Assembly: GCA_028715905.1 (NCBI GenBank)
Contig: JAQUQV010000011.1
Location: 1 to 47,933 of the forward strand
From: Kiritimatiellia bacterium
GTDB lineage: Bacteria > Verrucomicrobiota > Kiritimatiellia > JAAZAB01
Length of the DNA stretch: 47,933 nucleotides
Direction: 5' to 3'
This document shows, in pieces, positions 30,554 through 47,933 of this stretch. Below the pieces are notes generated by a model that saw only the letters and a list, made by a program, of their open reading frames with translations, had not been told where the DNA came from and made no database searches. The first letter of the stretch is position 1. Each line of letters starts with the position of its first letter. Made by a program: the position numbers and the translations under genes.

Positions 30554-31000
30554 GCGGACGGCGCGGTTATAAGCCGGATTTTGTGTTCCGGCCGAAATCC
30601 GGCCGGAATGATGATCATTTGTCTTATATTGGAACAAGTTTTAATTGCCCAATAGTTTCAGCGATCAACCCGAAACTGCTCGCCGCGAAGCGAATCAGGC
30701 GGGCCGCCTGAACAGTTTCCTATTTGATCTTGCTCCGGACGGGGTTTGCCTTGCAGCCGGACATTACTGCCCGGCCCGGTGGTCTCTTACACCGCCTTTT
30801 CACCCTTGTCCCTGCGGATTACCGCAAGGACGGTTTGTTTCTGTGGCACTTTCCATCTCTTCCGTTTATTCGGAAGATTTCCCGTTGTTTACCAGGCCGA
30901 AGGCCTGATTTACATCGGGACGCCCTGCCCTTTGGAGTCCGGACTTTCCTCCCCGGCCGATTCAAAACCGGCCGGAGCGATCATCCGCCGCGCCTTCCGC
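30554..31000 (-). ncRNA. rnpB: RNase P RNA
   Basis: The minus strand carries the conserved 5' block GAGGAAAGTCCGGACTCC (30954-30936) and the 3' block ACAAAATCCGGCTTAT (30584-30569). The ends pair as helix P1: GCGGAAGGCGCGG at 31000 with CCGCGCCGTCCGC at 30554, one mismatch. The core GGGCAGGGC, CAGGCC and GGTGTAAGAGACCACC blocks typical of type A RNase P RNA are present. At about 447 bases it is longer than the 377 of E. coli, so some helices are extended. A GATAAT -10-like box at 31014-31009 fits a start near 31000. It lies 12 bases downstream of the zinc-ribbon gene. Confidence 0.93.
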
Positions 31001-37970: not shown

Positions 37971-38381
37971 TTAATTTTTCTCGGACCGCTCATATTGGAG
38001 CAGCTGGCGGCAGGCATTAATGAACGTTTCGGACAGGCTGATCTCTTCGCGGGCCTGCGCCTCGGTGAAATGCGAGAACGCGGTATAATCGCTCAATTCG
38101 CGATAGGTCTCAAGGCGGGATAAATGACCCGCGGTTTCTTCCGTAACCGTGCCGGCCCGCACAAAATTATGATGGAACAACTGAATGACCCCGCGATGGG
38201 TTTTTGCTTCAATGCCGCGCGAAACAAGAAGGGCGCGCGCCCAATGAAAAGCGGCATAATATGCCCGTGAAACGGCGTCATTATAAAAGCCGGACGATAA
38301 AAGATGCCGGGCGGCGCCAAGCGCTTCGTCTCCGCGCCGCGCTTCGTCGTCAGAATTTTTTACGGCATTATCTTTTGTCAT
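37971..38381 (-). CDS. HEPN-domain protein, likely toxin of a MNT/HEPN pair
   Basis: The 136-residue all-helical HEPN protein has AAFHWARALLVSRG after SRAYY, giving the R-x6-H pattern RAYYAAFH of the RNase-like HEPN active site. It continues with THRGVIQLFHHNFVRAGTV, typical of the C-terminal half. HEPN proteins in such pairs are RNases or tRNA-directed toxins; the neighbouring nucleotidyltransferase silences them, in studied cases by AMPylation. Its start overlaps the antitoxin's stop by four bases (ATGA). Confidence 0.8.
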   Translation of the reverse strand: MTKDNAVKNSDDEARRGDEALGAARHLLSSGFYNDAVSRAYYAAFHWARALLVSRGIEAKTHRGVIQLFHHNFVRAGTVTEETAGHLSRLETYRELSDYTAFSHFTEAQAREEISLSETFINACRQLLQYERSEKN

Positions 38382-38749
38382 AAATCCATTCCTTCCCGCT
38401 GCACTTCAATGGCAAAGAGACGCTCGCGTTCCAGTAATCGGGCAAAATCCGACTCAGCCATAAATAAAGGCTGGATGAGGATGCCGCTGCCGCCGACTCC
38501 CAGTTCCGTTGCCCGGCAAATAAGCCAACGTTCATCATCGCCGGCAATATGATCCAGCAAAACAAGGATATCAATATCCGATTCCGGCGACCAGTCTCCC
38601 CGCGCCGCAGAACCGTAAAGACAAATCCGGCGCAATCGGTTTTTGAAGTGTTCCCTTGTTTCCAATGCGTATTGACGGGCCAGATTCCTCACCTCGGCCA
38701 GCTTTGTCCCGCCGGTTTCAATGTCGGTTTTGGCGATCATAATGACCAT
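38378..38749 (-). CDS. Minimal nucleotidyltransferase, likely antitoxin of the HEPN protein
   Basis: The 123 residues show the MNT signature YGSAARGDWSPESDIDILVL, with the Gly-Ser pair and both Asp residues that bind metal and nucleotide. The remaining part (WLICRATELGVGGSGILIQP) fits the family. MNT proteins of type VII systems transfer AMP to the partner HEPN toxin. The gene precedes and overlaps the HEPN gene by four bases. No promoter was identified in the 75 bases between it and apt. Confidence 0.8.
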   Translation of the reverse strand: MVIMIAKTDIETGGTKLAEVRNLARQYALETREHFKNRLRRICLYGSAARGDWSPESDIDILVLLDHIAGDDERWLICRATELGVGGSGILIQPLFMAESDFARLLERERLFAIEVQREGMDL

Positions 38750-41072: not shown

Positions 41073-41119
41073 TTGCTTGAAATCAGGTTTTGCGTCCGGT
41101 AAAATCTGATTTCAAGCAA
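41073..41119. repeat. 19-bp inverted repeat with nine-base loop
   Basis: TTGCTTGAAATCAGGTTTT (41073-41091) and its complement AAAATCTGATTTCAAGCAA (41101-41119) differ at one position. It lies about 80 bases beyond the 3' end of the prepilin peptidase gene and could end the ilv-leu-aroE operon or be part of a mobile repeat. No T run follows on the minus strand. Confidence 0.75.
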
Positions 41120-41196: not shown

Positions 41197-42012
41197 TTAA
41201 GATGCGCTCCGCAGCCAGCCCAAATACGCGGACCACCAATCGCTTCCCCCCGCCATCCAGACGATTGCCGCCAGAGCGAGATACGGTCCGAACGGGATTT
41301 TACTGCCCATGCCTTTCCGCCCGCACAAAACCATGGCAAGCCCGGCCAGGGCGCCGGCCAGGGAGGCGATCATAATCGTGAAAACAACCGCCTGCCAGCC
41401 GAGGAAAGCGCCAAGCGCCGCCAGCAGTTTCACATCCCCCATGCCCATGGCTTCCTTCCGGAAAGCCAGGCGGCCGAGTTCTCCGACCAGCCAGAGAGAC
41501 ATGCCGCCGATCAGCATTCCCACGAATGCGGTGCGGAAAGATTCCGCATGGGTGTTCACCCCGTGGAGTTGCGGAAAAACAATGCTGATCAGCAACCCGG
41601 CAAAAATGCCGCCGATTGTGATCTGATCGGGGATAATCATGTAATCAAAGTCTATGAAGGTGGCGATAATCAACCCCGTTGCGACCAGCCAGTAGACAAG
41701 AGTCCGGACGTCAAATCCGTAACGCAGGAAAACGACCAGGAAAAGCGCGCCCGTCAGCAGCTCAACCAGAAAGTAACGCCGCGATATTTCACCCGTACAG
41801 GCCCGGCAGCGGCCGCCCAGAAAAAGGAGGCTTAGCAACGGGATATTGTCAAACCAGGCGATCAACGCCCCGCAATCCGGACAATGCGAGCGCGGCACGA
41901 TTACGGAACGCCCCAGCGGCATGCGGTAGATGCAGACATTTGCAAAACTGCCGATACATGTTCCCAGGATGAAAGCGATAATGCTGTAAAAAACAAATAT
42001 TGCGTAAGGCAT
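41197..42012 (-). CDS. Type IV prepilin peptidase (A24)
   Basis: The enzyme cleaves leader peptides of type IV pilins or type II pseudopilins and methylates the new N-terminus. The 271-residue membrane protein has about seven or eight helices, the zinc-binding pairs CPDCG and CRAC in the cytoplasmic N-terminal domain, and the two catalytic aspartates in FIDFDYMIIPDQ and AMGMGDVKLLAALG. It is the last gene of the ilv-leu-aroE operon, 20 bases after aroE. It could serve the secretion system whose GspC-like component is encoded at 29630. Confidence 0.92.
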   Translation of the reverse strand: MPYAIFVFYSIIAFILGTCIGSFANVCIYRMPLGRSVIVPRSHCPDCGALIAWFDNIPLLSLLFLGGRCRACTGEISRRYFLVELLTGALFLVVFLRYGFDVRTLVYWLVATGLIIATFIDFDYMIIPDQITIGGIFAGLLISIVFPQLHGVNTHAESFRTAFVGMLIGGMSLWLVGELGRLAFRKEAMGMGDVKLLAALGAFLGWQAVVFTIMIASLAGALAGLAMVLCGRKGMGSKIPFGPYLALAAIVWMAGGSDWWSAYLGWLRSAS

Positions 42013-42032: not shown

Positions 42033-42902
42033 TCACAACTCGCGTCCGTACACGGCTTTTTCCAGGGTTTTGCGCATGACGTCAATCGGGGCTTTTTTTC
42101 CGGTCCAGAGTTCCAGCGCAAGCGCGCCCTGGAAGAGAAGCATATCAAGACCGTTGGCGGCCAGGGCGCCCGCCGCCCGGGCAATTTTCATCAGCCCCGT
42201 TTCGGGGAACATGTAAATCAGGTCGTAAAATTTTTGTTTCCGCGAAAAGGCGTCCTTGTCAAGCAAGGGAAGATCGTTCGGGTGCATGCCGACCGGCGTG
42301 GCTTGCACCACCAGGTCGGCGGAACGCGCCGCGCGGTTGCGCGCCGCGCGCGGCGCGGGCGCGATTTCAAGGTCAATGCGCGGCCGGGCGGCTTTGATGT
42401 CCACCGCCAGTTTTTCCGCGCGTTTCAGGTCGGAATCGGCCAGCACAATTTTTTTTGCGCCCGCCCCGGCGCAGGCCAGGGCCACCGCGCGGCCGGCTCC
42501 GCCGCAGCCCAACAGAAAAACAATCTGCCCTTCCGGCGAGCATTTAAAAGTTTTTTTGAGCGCCGCCAGAAACCCATGCCCATCCGTGCTGTAGCCTTTC
42601 ATGCCGCCGGGAAAGAACTTTACGGTGTTCACCGAGCCGAGCCGCCGGGCGGCGGGATCAATGTTTTTCAACCCGCGGAAAGCCGCTTCCTTGAGCGGCA
42701 CCGTAAGATTGACGCCGGCGAACCCCATTTCCATCATGCTTTTCAAAGTATCCAGCAACCGTTCGGGCCGGACATCAAACGCCAGGTAGACCGCGTCCAG
42801 CCCCATTTTTTCCAGGGCCGCATTCTGCATTTGGGGGGAAAGCGAATGGGCAATCGGGTGACCGATGACGGCATAGAGTCTGGTAGAGGAAGAGATGTTC
42901 AT
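42033..42902 (-). CDS. aroE: Shikimate dehydrogenase
   Basis: AroE reduces 3-dehydroshikimate with NADPH. The 289-residue protein has the substrate block IGHPIAHSLSPQMQNAALE, catalytic Lys in GVNLTVPLKEAA, Asp in GYSTDGHGFLAAL, the NADP loop LLGCGGAGRAVALACAG and VVQATPVGMHPND. The start ATG overlaps the leuA stop as ATGA, so translation is coupled. Upstream in-frame extension to 42944 would overlap leuA further and has no merit. Confidence 0.93.
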   Translation of the reverse strand: MNISSSTRLYAVIGHPIAHSLSPQMQNAALEKMGLDAVYLAFDVRPERLLDTLKSMMEMGFAGVNLTVPLKEAAFRGLKNIDPAARRLGSVNTVKFFPGGMKGYSTDGHGFLAALKKTFKCSPEGQIVFLLGCGGAGRAVALACAGAGAKKIVLADSDLKRAEKLAVDIKAARPRIDLEIAPAPRAARNRAARSADLVVQATPVGMHPNDLPLLDKDAFSRKQKFYDLIYMFPETGLMKIARAAGALAANGLDMLLFQGALALELWTGKKAPIDVMRKTLEKAVYGREL

Positions 42903-44431
42903 GATGCTTGCTTCCCGCCCATCGTCAAATGCCGGTTTACGCACGCCAGATAGGCGGCTGCGCTGGCCTGGACAATATCGGTGTTGGCGGCTTTCCCGCT
43001 GACAATGTCCGCGCCGAACGAGACGCGGACGCTCACTTCACCCTGGGCGTCTTTGCCGATGGTAACGGCCTGGATGGAATAATCAACCAATTTTCCCTTC
43101 ACGCCGGAGATCCGGTCTATTGTTTTCAATGCGGCGTCCACCGGGCCGTCGCCGCAGGCCGCGTCCTGGATGATGTTGTCGCCTTTCTTCAGGCGGATAG
43201 TGGCGGTGGGCACGGTTTTCGTCCCGGTCGTCACATTGAGGTAATCAAGAATATACAAACCACCGGCGGCCTCCTCCATTTCATCGCGCGCAATGGCGAC
43301 CAGGTCGTCATCATAGACGGCCTTTTTCTTGTCGGCCAGTTCAATGAAACGGCCGTAGGCCCGCTCCAGTTCGCGCGGGCTCAATTTGAATCCCATGCGC
43401 GCGAGCCTTTCGCGGAAAGCGTGCCGGCCGGAATGTTTTCCGAGAATGAGTTCCGAGCCTTCAATGCCGACGTCCTGCGGGCGCATGATTTCGTAAGTTG
43501 TTCTTTCCTTGAGGATGCCGTCCTGATGAATGCCGGCCTCATGGGCAAAGGCATTGGCGCCGACAATCGCCTTGTTGCGTTGAACGACCATGCCGGTGAG
43601 TCCGCTGACAAGCTTGCTGGCGCGGTGCAATTCGCGCGTCAAAACATCCGTTTTCAGATGAAAGGCGTCCGCGCGGGTCCGCAAGGCCATGACGAGTTCC
43701 TCAAGGGCGCAGTTCCCGGCTCTTTCGCCGATGCCGTTGATAGTGCATTCCACGCCGCGCGCGCCGTTTTTCAAGGCGGCCAGCGAATTGGCCACCGCCA
43801 GGCCGAGATCATTGTGACAGTGCACATTGATAACCGCCCCGGAAATATTCGGGACATTTTCAAACAGGGAGGCAATCAGCGCTCCGAATTCATGCGGCAC
43901 GGCATAACCGACTGTGTCGGGAATATTCACGGTGGCGGCCCCGGCGTCAATCACGGCCCGCGTAACCTCCGCGAGAAAATCCGGCTCCGTGCGGGTGGCG
44001 TCCTCGGGACTGAACTCCACGTCCGGGCAGAGGCGGCGCGCGTAGCGGACGGCGGAGGATGCCTGGCGGAGAATTTCTTTTTTATCCATTTTAAGCTTGA
44101 AGCGCCGGTGGATGGGGGAAGTGGCCAGGAAAACGTGGATTCTCCCGCGTTTACCGGCCGGCGCGACCGCCTCCGCGCAGCGTTCAATGTCCTTTTTCAG
44201 GCATCTTGACAGGCCGGCAATGCGCGGCCCCTTGATGTTTTCGGCGATGGCCTTTACCGCGTGAAAATCGTCCGGGGATGCGATCGGGAATCCGGCCTCA
44301 ATCACGTCAACATTGAGACGCGCCAGTTGGCGCGCGATTTCCAGTTTTTCGCGGTGGTTGAGGCTGGCGCCCGGGCACTGCTCGCCGTCCCGGAGGGTTG
44401 TGTCAAAAATCAAAACCTTGTCAGGTTTCAT
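42899..44431 (-). CDS. leuA: 2-isopropylmalate synthase
   Basis: LeuA condenses acetyl-CoA with 2-oxoisovalerate, the first committed step to leucine. The 510-residue protein has the HMGL-like barrel with FDTTLRDGEQCPGASL, EFSPEDATRTE, the metal site NVHCHNDLGLAVANSLAAL and NGIGERAGNCALEE, plus a full C-terminal LeuA allosteric domain, so leucine feedback is likely. I choose the ATG at 44431 because GGAG lies six bases upstream; the ATG four codons earlier has no site. It lies between ilvN and aroE. Confidence 0.95.
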   Translation of the reverse strand: MKPDKVLIFDTTLRDGEQCPGASLNHREKLEIARQLARLNVDVIEAGFPIASPDDFHAVKAIAENIKGPRIAGLSRCLKKDIERCAEAVAPAGKRGRIHVFLATSPIHRRFKLKMDKKEILRQASSAVRYARRLCPDVEFSPEDATRTEPDFLAEVTRAVIDAGAATVNIPDTVGYAVPHEFGALIASLFENVPNISGAVINVHCHNDLGLAVANSLAALKNGARGVECTINGIGERAGNCALEELVMALRTRADAFHLKTDVLTRELHRASKLVSGLTGMVVQRNKAIVGANAFAHEAGIHQDGILKERTTYEIMRPQDVGIEGSELILGKHSGRHAFRERLARMGFKLSPRELERAYGRFIELADKKKAVYDDDLVAIARDEMEEAAGGLYILDYLNVTTGTKTVPTATIRLKKGDNIIQDAACGDGPVDAALKTIDRISGVKGKLVDYSIQAVTIGKDAQGEVSVRVSFGADIVSGKAANTDIVQASAAAYLACVNRHLTMGGKQAS

Positions 44432-44483
44432 TGTCTTCTCCATAGCTTGTCATTTTTATAAAGTCACATCCACAACTCCCTTG

Positions 44484-44969
44484 CTATTCCTTCCCCTCCG
44501 TCCTTCCCAGGGCAATCACTCCGGTCCGGGAAACATCCACGATACCGTTTGCCCGCACCAATTCAAGGAAATTGTCAATTTCATCGCTGCCGCCGACAAT
44601 CTGAATTGTGAGCGATTTATGATGGACATGAACCACCTCGGCCTTGAAGAGGGAGGCCAGCTCCATGACTGACGAGCGATTCCGGCCGGAAATCTGCACT
44701 TTTATCAAAGCCAGTTCGCGGTCAATGAACTTTTCGCCGGTCAAATCGTAGACCTTGATGACGTCCACCAGCTTGTTCAGCTGTTTGGTCACCTGTTCCA
44801 GGACGCGGTCGTCTCCGGGCACGGTCATGGTGATTCTGGAAACCGTCAGGTCATGGGTCGGCGCCACGTTGAGCGTCTCAATATTATAACCGCGGCCGGA
44901 AATCAGGCCGACCACCCGGGCCAGGACGCCGGGCTTGTTTTCAACCAGAACTGAAATAACATGTTTCAT
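44484..44969 (-). CDS. ilvN: Acetolactate synthase small subunit
   Basis: The 161-residue regulatory subunit has an N-terminal ACT domain (VLVENKPGVLARVVGLISGR, GYNIETLNVAPT) that binds valine, and a C-terminal ferredoxin-like domain with IDRELALIKVQ. It activates and gives feedback control to IlvB. It lies 49 bases downstream of ilvB and 52 before the chosen leuA start. The symbol ilvH would be equally fitting. Confidence 0.93.
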   Translation of the reverse strand: MKHVISVLVENKPGVLARVVGLISGRGYNIETLNVAPTHDLTVSRITMTVPGDDRVLEQVTKQLNKLVDVIKVYDLTGEKFIDRELALIKVQISGRNRSSVMELASLFKAEVVHVHHKSLTIQIVGGSDEIDNFLELVRANGIVDVSRTGVIALGRTEGKE

Positions 44970-45018: not shown

Positions 45019-46740
45019 TTACGCCATGCTTTGAATCATTTCGGTCAGGGAGGCGCCCGCCGGGACCATGGGATACACGTTGGCCTCAGGCTCAACCATG
45101 CACTCCACGACCACGGGGCCGTCATGGGTAAACGCCTTTTTCAAGGTTGCCTCAACCTGCGCGCGCGCCTCCACTCTGAGTCCGAGCGCGCCGTGGGCTT
45201 CGGCCAGCCTGACGAAATCCGGCAGGTATTTGGCGCCTTTTTTTGTCTTGATGTTTTCATTCTTGCCGCGCTCCGCCTGTCCCAAACGCGTGGCGGAATA
45301 TTCCTTTTTGTAAAACAGTTCCTGCCATTGCCGCACCATTCCCAGGTAACCGTTGTTCAGGATAACGATTTTGATCGGCACGTTATGCTCAACCGCCACC
45401 ACCACTTCCTGGAAATTCATCTGCGCACTGCCGTCGCCGGAAATATCAACCACGATTTTATCGGGCCGGGCGATCTGGGCGCCGATGGCCGCCGGCAGAC
45501 CGAAGCCCATGGTGCCCAGGCCGCCGGACGAGATAAAAGTCCGCGGCTGGGTATATTTATAATACTGAGCGGCCCACATCTGGTGCTGGCCGACCTCGGT
45601 AACAATGACCGCCTCGCCCTTGGTCAGGCTGTAAATCTGCTCAATGACGTACTGCGGCATCAATTTTTTGGAATCGCGGTCATAAGAGAAGGGATGTTTT
45701 TCTTTCCACGCCATAATCTGTTCTCGCCATTCTTTCCTTTCCCCGGAGTCAACATGGGGAAGCAATGCGCGCAGAATGCTTTTCACATCGCCCACAACCG
45801 GGATATCAACCGGCACGCTTTTTGAAATGGCGCTGGGATCAATGTCAATATGGGCGATCCGCGCTTTGGGCGCAAATTCCGATATCTTGCCCGTCACCCG
45901 GTCGTCAAACCGGGCGCCGATTGAAACCAGCAGATCGCAATGGTGCGTGGCGTAATTGGCCGTAACGCTCCCATGCATGCCGAGCATACGCAGGGCCAAG
46001 GCGTCCGTTTCCGGAAAGGCTCCCAATCCCAGAAGCGTGGTAGTGACCGGCAGTCCGCTTTTATGCGCCAGCGCCGCCACTTCCGCGGCGGCGTTGCCTG
46101 CAATGGCGCCACCGCCGACGTAAAGGAGCGGACGGGCGGCCTTGTTTATCGCTTCCGCCAGCCGCGCGATCTGTTTGGGATGGCCATCGGTCGTCGGGTG
46201 GTAACTGCGGATATCCACCGCGTCCGGCGTCGGGGCGGACGTTGAGGCGCGCTGGACATCCTTGGGAATATCTATCAGCACCGGGCCGGGCCGGCCGGTG
46301 GCGGCGATGTGAAAAGCTTCCGCGATAATCCGCGGCAATTCATCCACGTTGCGGACCAGATAATTATGTTTGGTCACCGGGCGCGTAATGCCGGTGATAT
46401 CCGCCTCCTGAAAGGCGTCATTGCCGATCATGGGGGTTGGAACCTGCCCGGTGATGCAGACCAGAGGGATGGAATCCATGTTGGCGTTGGCCAGTCCGGT
46501 CACGGTATTGGTGGCGCCGGGGCCGGAAGTCGCCAGGCAGCAGCCGACCTTGCCGCTGGCGCGCGCGTAGCCGTCGGCCATATGGGTGGCGCCCTGCTCG
46601 TGCCGGGCCAGGATGAATTCAAACGGCGCGTGGTATAATTTGTTAAAAATATCCAGAACCGAGCCGCCCGGCAGACCGAATATGGTTTTCACGCCCGCCT
46701 TTTTCAATCCGTCAATCAAACATTCAACTCCTGTGCGCAT
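45019..46740 (-). CDS. ilvB: Acetolactate synthase large subunit
   Basis: IlvB makes 2-acetolactate or acetohydroxybutyrate with thiamine diphosphate, the first common step to valine, leucine and isoleucine. The 573 residues include the TPP-activating Glu in FILARHEQGATHMADGYARA, GRPGPVLIDIPKDVQ, the central FAD-type domain and the TPP/Mg motif ISGDGSAQMNFQE with ILNNGYLGMVRQWQELFY. AGGGGGA lies just upstream of the ATG. It is preceded by the attenuator at 46791-46955. Confidence 0.95.
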   Translation of the reverse strand: MRTGVECLIDGLKKAGVKTIFGLPGGSVLDIFNKLYHAPFEFILARHEQGATHMADGYARASGKVGCCLATSGPGATNTVTGLANANMDSIPLVCITGQVPTPMIGNDAFQEADITGITRPVTKHNYLVRNVDELPRIIAEAFHIAATGRPGPVLIDIPKDVQRASTSAPTPDAVDIRSYHPTTDGHPKQIARLAEAINKAARPLLYVGGGAIAGNAAAEVAALAHKSGLPVTTTLLGLGAFPETDALALRMLGMHGSVTANYATHHCDLLVSIGARFDDRVTGKISEFAPKARIAHIDIDPSAISKSVPVDIPVVGDVKSILRALLPHVDSGERKEWREQIMAWKEKHPFSYDRDSKKLMPQYVIEQIYSLTKGEAVIVTEVGQHQMWAAQYYKYTQPRTFISSGGLGTMGFGLPAAIGAQIARPDKIVVDISGDGSAQMNFQEVVVAVEHNVPIKIVILNNGYLGMVRQWQELFYKKEYSATRLGQAERGKNENIKTKKGAKYLPDFVRLAEAHGALGLRVEARAQVEATLKKAFTHDGPVVVECMVEPEANVYPMVPAGASLTEMIQSMA

Positions 46741-46790: not shown

Positions 46791-46821
46791 ACAAAAAACC
46801 CACCGTTTTTTTCGGCGGGTT
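46791..46821 (-). terminator. Attenuator terminator upstream of ilvB
   Basis: On the minus strand AACCCGCCG (46821-46813) pairs with CGGTGGGTT (46805-46797), one G-T pair, around a seven-A loop, followed by TTTTTTGTTTT. This is a typical rho-independent terminator placed between the leader peptide stop and ilvB. Its 5' arm can also pair with a second CGGTGGG in the leader-peptide coding region (46876-46870). Confidence 0.85.
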
Positions 46822-46853
46822 CAAATCTCGTCCGGGTTATACGATGGTCCGTA

Positions 46854-46955
46854 TCAGCCGGGAGGTTCTCCCACCGCGGGACGCAACACTACAAGCAGGC
46901 CGGCAACCGACAGCCCCGCCCCTTTTAACCGCGCGATGGAAGTTTTATTGCTCAT
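46854..46955 (-). CDS. ilv operon leader peptide
   Basis: A 33-codon frame starts at the ATG at 46955 and ends at TGA (46856-46854). Its middle reads LSVAGLLVVLRPAV: four Leu and four Val in 14 residues. A hairpin GGGAG/CTCCC (46872-46860) lies in its last codons, and a terminator follows before ilvB. This is the standard layout of leader-peptide attenuation, where ribosome stalling at scarce Leu- or Val-tRNA prevents termination. There is no convincing Shine-Dalgarno sequence, and the promoter places the start point almost at the ATG. Confidence 0.75.
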   Translation of the reverse strand: MSNKTSIARLKGAGLSVAGLLVVLRPAVGEPPG

Positions 46956-46962
46956 GGCCAAC

Positions 46963-46991
46963 TTTTTATCAATGCAATTTTAACATGTCAA
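46963..46991 (-). promoter_or_regulatory. Promoter of the ilvBN-leuA-aroE operon
   Basis: TTGACA (46991-46986) and TAAAAA (46968-46963) are spaced exactly 17 bases on the minus strand. The predicted start is about 46956, one base before the leader peptide ATG. Confidence 0.6.
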
Positions 46992-47303: not shown

Positions 47304-47933
47304 TTAAGATGAGTTTGCGTTAAACAACGCTGTATAACGATCTATATTGGGATCGGCCGCGATTTTATCGAGGGCGGACTTGAAAGCCTGTTCGACCAAG
47401 TCATGCCGGCATGCTGTTGTATTGACGGAACGTTTTTTTAGTGTGTGCAAGACCGTCATCAGGATTTCGCGTGTTCTGGCGCCGGCATCGGATTGGGAAC
47501 CAAAACTGAGCTTGCGGGCAATGACCAGGGGACGCAATTCGCGTTCAGCAAAATTATTATCGGCTGGGATCAGCGGGTCTTCAACCCAATGAAACAGGCG
47601 TTTGCCTTTTTCGCGGAAAATATTTTGAATGCCTTGAATGGCGGGATGTTGCGCTTCCGTATTAATGACTTTCAAGATGGCGCGCTTGATCTGCCGCGCC
47701 TGGCGACAAAACTGGCCTTTGGATAAAGGCAGCCGGCGCAGACTCATGGCGCTGGCCATGAGCGGCGCCAAAGCGGCCACAAACCGACGGATTTCTTCGT
47801 TATCTCGCTTCTGGCTACGGCGTCTTTTTTTCAGTGAGTCAACGGACAAGCCTAAGAAAAACAATTTTTTCGCTTTTCACCGGCGGGCGTGGGCCGCAAC
47901 GGCGCGCGCCGTTTCGCGTTCCACGGTCTCCTG
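47304..47933 (-). pseudogene. IS66-family transposase TnpC remnant
   Basis: The C-terminal part is clearly IS66 TnpC: FVAALAPLMASAMSLRRLPL, AQHPAIQGIQNIFREKGKRL, HWVEDPLIPADNNFAERELR, FGSQSDAGARTREILMTVLH. It contains the final Glu of the DDE triad (in NNFAERELRP) but no upstream Asp residues. Further upstream in the same frame a TGA (47879-47877) interrupts, and before it the frame reads ETVERETARAVAAHARR to the window edge, which resembles the N-terminal Arg/His segment of IS66 TnpC. The catalytic middle would then be deleted. The gene is non-functional on this reading; the link between the two parts is inferred. Confidence 0.75.

Follow-up and report, generated by a model that had tools for sequence, protein, structure and literature searches.

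The window, by which is meant the whole 47,933-nucleotide stretch of DNA that was analysed, very probably contains a transcription attenuator of the ribosome-mediated kind, which responds to the charging of Leu- and Val-tRNA and governs ilvB-ilvN-leuA-aroE, probably together with a prepilin peptidase gene; the regulation itself is predicted from sequence and from modelling. Direct support exists for the elements of the leader, for their conservation, for the covariation of two competing helices (1:2 and 2:3, named after the segments that they join), for the placement of the Leu and Val codons in the leader peptide, and for the predicted folds.

From this material we infer the start site, the stalling, the termination and the read-through. 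Transcription would begin at or adjoining the leader ATG, so that the ribosome would load on a bare 5' end without a Shine-Dalgarno sequence. When no ribosome translates the leader, segment 1 is predicted by the folding model to sequester segment 2, and the terminator (3:4) would form. When Leu and Val are ample, the ribosome would reach the stop codon and cover segment 2, again leaving the terminator to form. When Leu or Val is short, the ribosome would stall at Leu20-Val23 with its front edge just before the CGGTGGG at 46876, segment 2 would take segment 3 as an antiterminator, and the polymerase would read on.

Leader elements and promoter

The elements described here all lie on the minus strand upstream of ilvB. 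The −35 box TTGACA (46986..46991), which is absent from the initial annotation, begins 36 nt upstream of the first base of the leader ATG and is separated by a 17-nt spacer from the −10 box TAAAAA (46963..46968), which is a consensus match only. The leader peptide ORF, MSNKTSIARLKGAGLSVAGLLVVLRPAVGEPPG (46854..46955), has the 33 residues first reported for it, followed by a stop codon, and includes the control codons Leu20, Leu21, Val22, Val23 and Leu24; Leu, Val and Ile make up 30% of the peptide, which is thus a short ORF rich in codons for the products of the pathway. Segment 1, CTTCCATCGCGCGG (46929..46942), which the initial annotation had also missed, is a third strand about 16 nt past the ATG that is identified by the minimum free energy (MFE) fold, by covariation, and by its conservation at that position in most relatives. 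Segment 2 (46868..46880) is the switching strand within the leader ORF. Segment 3, GAACCCGCCG (46813..46822), is the 5' arm of the terminator and is common to the antiterminator and the terminator, while segment 4, CGGTGGGTTT (46796..46805), is the 3' arm and is followed by a T-rich tract.

The terminator reads GAACCCGCCG-AAAAAAA-CGGTGGGTTT, then TTTGTTTT. Its core consists of CCCGCCG (46819-46813), a loop of seven A residues (46812-46806) and CGGTGGG (46805-46799), and the full stem with its flanking pairs (46822-46796) has 10 pairs and a folding energy of −15.2 kcal/mol. The double occurrence of CGGTGGG, once as the core of segment 2 (46876-46870) and once in the 3' arm of the terminator, was confirmed, as was the terminator with its seven-A loop, except that the stem begins 31 nt past the leader stop and not 33 nt as had been given. 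A second copy of the terminator pattern was searched for, and the ilvB leader is its single match in the whole genome.

The region that runs from the end of the leader to the end of the terminator has a folding z of −3.8, and none of 200 dinucleotide shuffles folds as well. The MFE stability of the whole leader was dropped as evidence; its z is only −1.3, which is unremarkable compared to shuffles, so fold energy is insufficient by itself. The single window would also be compatible with a hairpin that terminates constitutively or that ends a transcript from upstream, beside which the ORF and the CGGTGGG repeat are coincidental, and a pattern-based terminator scan by itself did not rise above shuffled sequence. 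This explanation is nevertheless very improbable, given that 44 to 45 genomes have a promoter and a Leu/Val-rich ORF immediately before it, that the leader and terminator arms co-evolve, and that the control codons are specifically placed.

Promoters were compared across 45 representative leaders, from which near-duplicates had been removed. In 44 of the 45 genomes TTGAC occurs 35-41 nt before an in-frame leader start, compared to a mean of 0.5 and a maximum of 4 when the upstream DNA is shuffled, and the −10 box mostly ends 6-12 nt before the ATG in the relatives. Taken with standard sigma-70 spacing, the TTGAC spacing suggests a transcription start on the ATG or no more than a few bases away from it; in the window the start is predicted at or within about 1 nt of it. 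A Shine-Dalgarno-like pentamer at the right distance was found in 1 of the 45 leaders versus 25 of 45 in the 45 nt immediately preceding ilvB, a comparison which is only rough because the stretch searched before ilvB was longer. Given the promoter spacing, the mRNA from which the leader peptide is translated is probably leaderless.

A broader reading, to which we incline without great firmness, is that these leaders form a class-wide, undescribed family of leaderless Leu/Val attenuators, in which transcription starts on the ATG, no Shine-Dalgarno sequence is used, and a conserved strand at about +16, where the ribosome has its edge during initiation, keeps the switching strand sequestered until the first ribosome advances. 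If this is true, expression of ilvBN-leuA-aroE would depend both on the charging of Leu- and Val-tRNA and on the capacity of the cell for leaderless initiation.

Competing helices and control codons

The three helices form a mutually competing set: helix 1:2 joins 46942-46929 with 46880-46868, helix 2:3 joins 46876-46870 with 46819-46813, and helix 3:4 is the terminator. Co-evolution of the leader and the terminator arm was examined by a swap test (n=45), which combined the leader 3' half from each genome with the terminator 5' arm of that genome and of every other genome. The own partner gave −24.3 kcal/mol versus −19.4 kcal/mol for swapped partners (z −10.9), and none of 20000 permutations reached the own-partner score. 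Segment 1 (leader nt 10-39), tested with its own partner, gave a z of −7.2. The controls were flat, with z values of 0.2 for shuffled segment 3, 0.4 for DNA upstream of the ORF, and 0.1 for segment 1 with segment 3.

Compensatory changes point in the same direction. In position-defined alignments the fourth pair of helix 2:3 is A-U in 7 and G-C in 7 of 16 genomes, the matching pair of helix 1:2 is U-A in 7, C-G in 6 and U-G in 2, and sliding the partner by 1-3 columns lowers the pairing from 75-82% to 31-53%. When position-fixed 12-mers from the 16 genomes are compared, the contrast for helix 2:3 is weaker, being reached in 558 of 50000 swaps, since the core does not vary and the register is shifted in some relatives, and it was for this reason that the unrestricted swap test and its controls were used. 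One such shift, in L127 and its kin, places GGUGCGUGUC opposite GACACCCACC by eye. Shifted registers are expected where function is conserved while sequence drifts. In L115-L118, L127-L134 and L012 the leader strand pairs at and just upstream of the terminator arm, and not with the core alone.

The proposal that the leader and terminator copies of CGGTGGG compete for the CCCGCCG arm is thus supported by own-versus-swapped pairing as well as by the predicted folds, and the alignment of relatives that had been put forward as a check shows conservation of the leader frame, of the Leu/Val codons and of the alternate helix, with compensatory changes. A caveat applies to this genome, in that the 2:3 core of the window has just 7 pairs, one of them G-U, and its energy is worse than the mean for its segment 2 with the segment 3 of other genomes.

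The composition of the leaders was evaluated in the same 45 genomes. Val accounts for 18.5% and Leu for 14.2% of residues (32.7% together), and there is no enrichment of Ile, which accounts for only 3.7%. A qualifying ATG ORF is present in 43 of the 45 real leaders versus about 9 of 45 after dinucleotide shuffling of the region, and Leu and Val make up 32% of the real ORFs versus 16% of the shuffled ones. Leaders of another family resemble that of the window, with GLLVILRPAVGGG in L144/L150 compared to GLLVVLRPAVGEP here.

When codon positions are counted from the start of segment 2, which was picked by complementarity only, the Leu+Val frequency peaks at 0.60-0.69 at 4-6 codons upstream and is lower at most downstream positions. 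The front edge of a stalled ribosome lies about 12 nt past the first base of the A-site codon, and a ribosome stalled at this peak would therefore halt just short of segment 2. In the window, any codon from Leu20 to Val23 in the A site leaves 46876-46870 free, while a stall at Leu24 would cover its first bases; the folds agree with the earlier proposal that stalling at Leu20-Val22 frees the leader copy, and the usable codons are widened to Leu20-Val23.

Folding with and without a masked leader, as had also been suggested, gave the predicted switch in structure. If a ribosome sits at Leu21, Val22 or Val23 before segment 4 has been transcribed, the MFE fold (−26.3 kcal/mol) is the antiterminator, which takes the form of a long hairpin with interruptions that the 7 pairs of helix 2:3 close. 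A ribosome at the stop codon leaves only −3.5 kcal/mol of structure, and transcription of segment 4 then allows the terminator to form; when there is no ribosome, helix 1:2 and the terminator coexist in the MFE fold. At full length the antiterminator is itself the MFE fold for a stall at Val23, and for a stall at Val22 it is close to the best alternative (−31.4 versus −33.6 kcal/mol). The in silico folds thus include an antiterminator that is incompatible with the terminator and becomes available when the ribosome stalls at the control codons. Since segment 1 lies behind a ribosome stalled at these codons, re-pairing of helix 1:2 around the ribosome is conceivable.

These data also bear on the possibility that the leader acts on ilvB by translational coupling or translational attenuation and not by transcription termination. 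Some actinobacterial leu leaders lack terminators (PMC8079986), but here a strong U-tract terminator is conserved and lies between the leader stop and the ilvB start, which are 113 nt apart, and such a mechanism is extremely unlikely.

Downstream genes and distribution

Profile matches identify the downstream genes, all on the minus strand, as those originally named: ilvB, acetolactate synthase large subunit (45019..46740; TIGR00118, 815 bits); ilvN, the small subunit (44484..44969; NF008864 and TIGR00119); leuA, 2-isopropylmalate synthase (42899..44443; TIGR00973); aroE, shikimate dehydrogenase (42033..42902; TIGR00507), whose ATG overlaps the leuA stop (ATGA); and an A24 prepilin peptidase (41197..42012; PF06750 and PF01478), which is the probable last gene of the unit. 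The products of ilvB, ilvN and leuA make the amino acids that would be sensed. No terminator-like site was found on the operon strand in the ilvB-ilvN (49 nt) and ilvN-leuA (40 nt) gaps. The order ilvB-ilvN-leuA-aroE-prepilin peptidase is kept in eight relatives (L167-L173, L177), and ilvB-ilvN-leuA-aroE also in L032, L033 and L034.

The gap scan, the aroE overlap and the conserved gene order together indicate that the attenuator most likely controls ilvB through aroE. Co-transcription of aroE with leuA and the preceding genes is strongly indicated by the ATG overlap and the conserved order, and the conserved place of aroE suggests that the supply of branched-chain amino acids may be linked to that of aromatic ones, which is open to testing. 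Of the two genes that the initial annotation had tied to branched-chain supply, aroE is upheld as a co-transcribed gene and its regulation is a prediction, while inclusion of the prepilin peptidase gene in the controlled unit is plausible. A 368-nt gap follows the prepilin peptidase gene, and an extension of control beyond it, to aroK, queG and apt, is unsupported.

Several other features of the window were observed. A perfect inverted repeat of about 20 pairs, TGCTTGAAATCAG...CTGATTTCAAGCA (41074-41118), lies between the prepilin peptidase gene and aroK and has no T-tract on the operon strand. Adjacent, just-overlapping ORFs at 37971-38749 (minus strand) encode a nucleotidyltransferase (PF01909) and a HEPN protein (PF05168), a pair resembling MNT-HEPN toxin-antitoxin systems, with an NCBIfam MntA match below its cut-off. 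A partial IS66-family transposase (47304-47864, minus strand) is found close to the end of the contig, on the upstream side of the attenuator promoter, and a class A bacterial RNase P RNA lies at 30554-30996 (minus strand).

The distribution of the leader was evaluated with a uniform pipeline that scores a locus when an ORF containing 28% or more Leu/Val/Ile lies no further than 60 nt before an intrinsic terminator, applied to same-family, same-class and distant loci fetched via IlvB. The layout was found at 50 of 72 same-class ilvB loci versus 4 of 70 more distant loci, which are mostly from other phyla. Some of the 4 positive distant loci may be genuine proteobacterial attenuators. In two proteobacterial genomes (L094, L109) the region upstream of ilvB has a terminator preceded by a short leader (MKNFTVLIVVGKRMGRMV and MIKIANILVVGRRMGRMV), and these are probably genuine attenuators of another type. 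The 22 class loci that did not score include L010 (G008), of the same family, in which the 500 nt before ilvB lack both terminator and leader although IlvB is 84% identical; its attenuator appears to have been lost, or its ilvB moved. A further locus, L009 (G011), looked T-box-like by eye (TGGTACCACCG), but this received no support from Rfam, and its upstream DNA ends at the contig end. The comparative evidence is dense, and the alignment is one from which an RNA family could be built.

Comparison with known systems

A search of the window and 13 relatives against Rfam 15 at gathering and loose thresholds gave no match for the ilvB leader element; the best loose match was anti-hemB (E 0.04), far under its cut-off. 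The search bears on the possibility of a translation-independent RNA switch (a T-box, a riboswitch or a protein-bound leader) that merely contains an ORF. The structured leader with its terminator would suit such a switch, and ilvB genes elsewhere can be under T-boxes. In addition, ppGpp riboswitches can govern ilvB elsewhere (PMC10272879). Neither the T-box model nor any riboswitch or leader family matched at gathering score, however, and the ORF, its start codon and its Leu/Val codons are conserved while the sequence and the pairing register drift, which leaves such a switch a highly unlikely explanation. Counted against the attenuator is the behaviour of a similar-looking ilvB leader in Streptomyces coelicolor, which is reported not to have acted as a classical attenuator when its codons were mutated (PMC1262725).

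The type of attenuation proposed is classic and already known, while this group of ilvB leaders is without an Rfam model. The E. coli ivbL-ilvBN, ilvGMEDA and leu attenuators, compared only via Rfam, use the same logic of control codons, antiterminator and terminator, and the leader of one relative (L014) has a VVVVGN run that recalls E. coli IvbL. Proteobacterial ilv/leu leaders have a normal 5' UTR with a Shine-Dalgarno sequence, and their Rfam leader models have no match here. The ilvB-OMG and Leptospira ilvB motifs are RNA motifs before ilvB with branched-chain-rich uORFs and are proposed attenuators (PMC10272879); these families, and known ilv/leu families such as the Leu leader, likewise gave no match at the Rfam 15 gathering threshold. 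The literature describes ilvB attenuators or candidates in Corynebacterium, Streptomyces, Mycobacterium, Leptospira and the ilvB-OMG group; it yielded nothing for the present class in a search that did not use the class name, so that absence is unproven.

A close parallel is the C. glutamicum ilvBNC leader (ilvB-II motif), which also has a short ORF with branched-chain codons before ilvB and three competing hairpins, and in which transcription starts one nucleotide from the leader start codon, so that it is leaderless (PMC11857589, PMC10272879). The present leader differs in its length (33 codons versus about 15), in its lack of Ile enrichment and of an Rfam match, and in its operon (ilvBN-leuA-aroE versus ilvBNC); moreover, hairpin H1 of C. 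glutamicum shields the start region, whereas segment 1 here begins about 13-16 nt past the first base of the ATG, near the edge of the initiating ribosome. RNAs that start at the leader-peptide ATG are also known for Sinorhizobium meliloti trpL (PMC7298713) and Streptomyces lividans ilvL, leuL and trpL (PMC8079986), which belong to other phyla and encode other peptides, while the leaderless state here is a prediction from promoter spacing. The present leaders are a possible independent case of leaderless leader peptides, after those of the Actinobacteria and Alphaproteobacteria, and bear on whether attenuation and leaderless initiation are linked; they would also bring into the known range of ribosome-mediated attenuation an uncultured bacterial class on which the literature searched yielded no such description.
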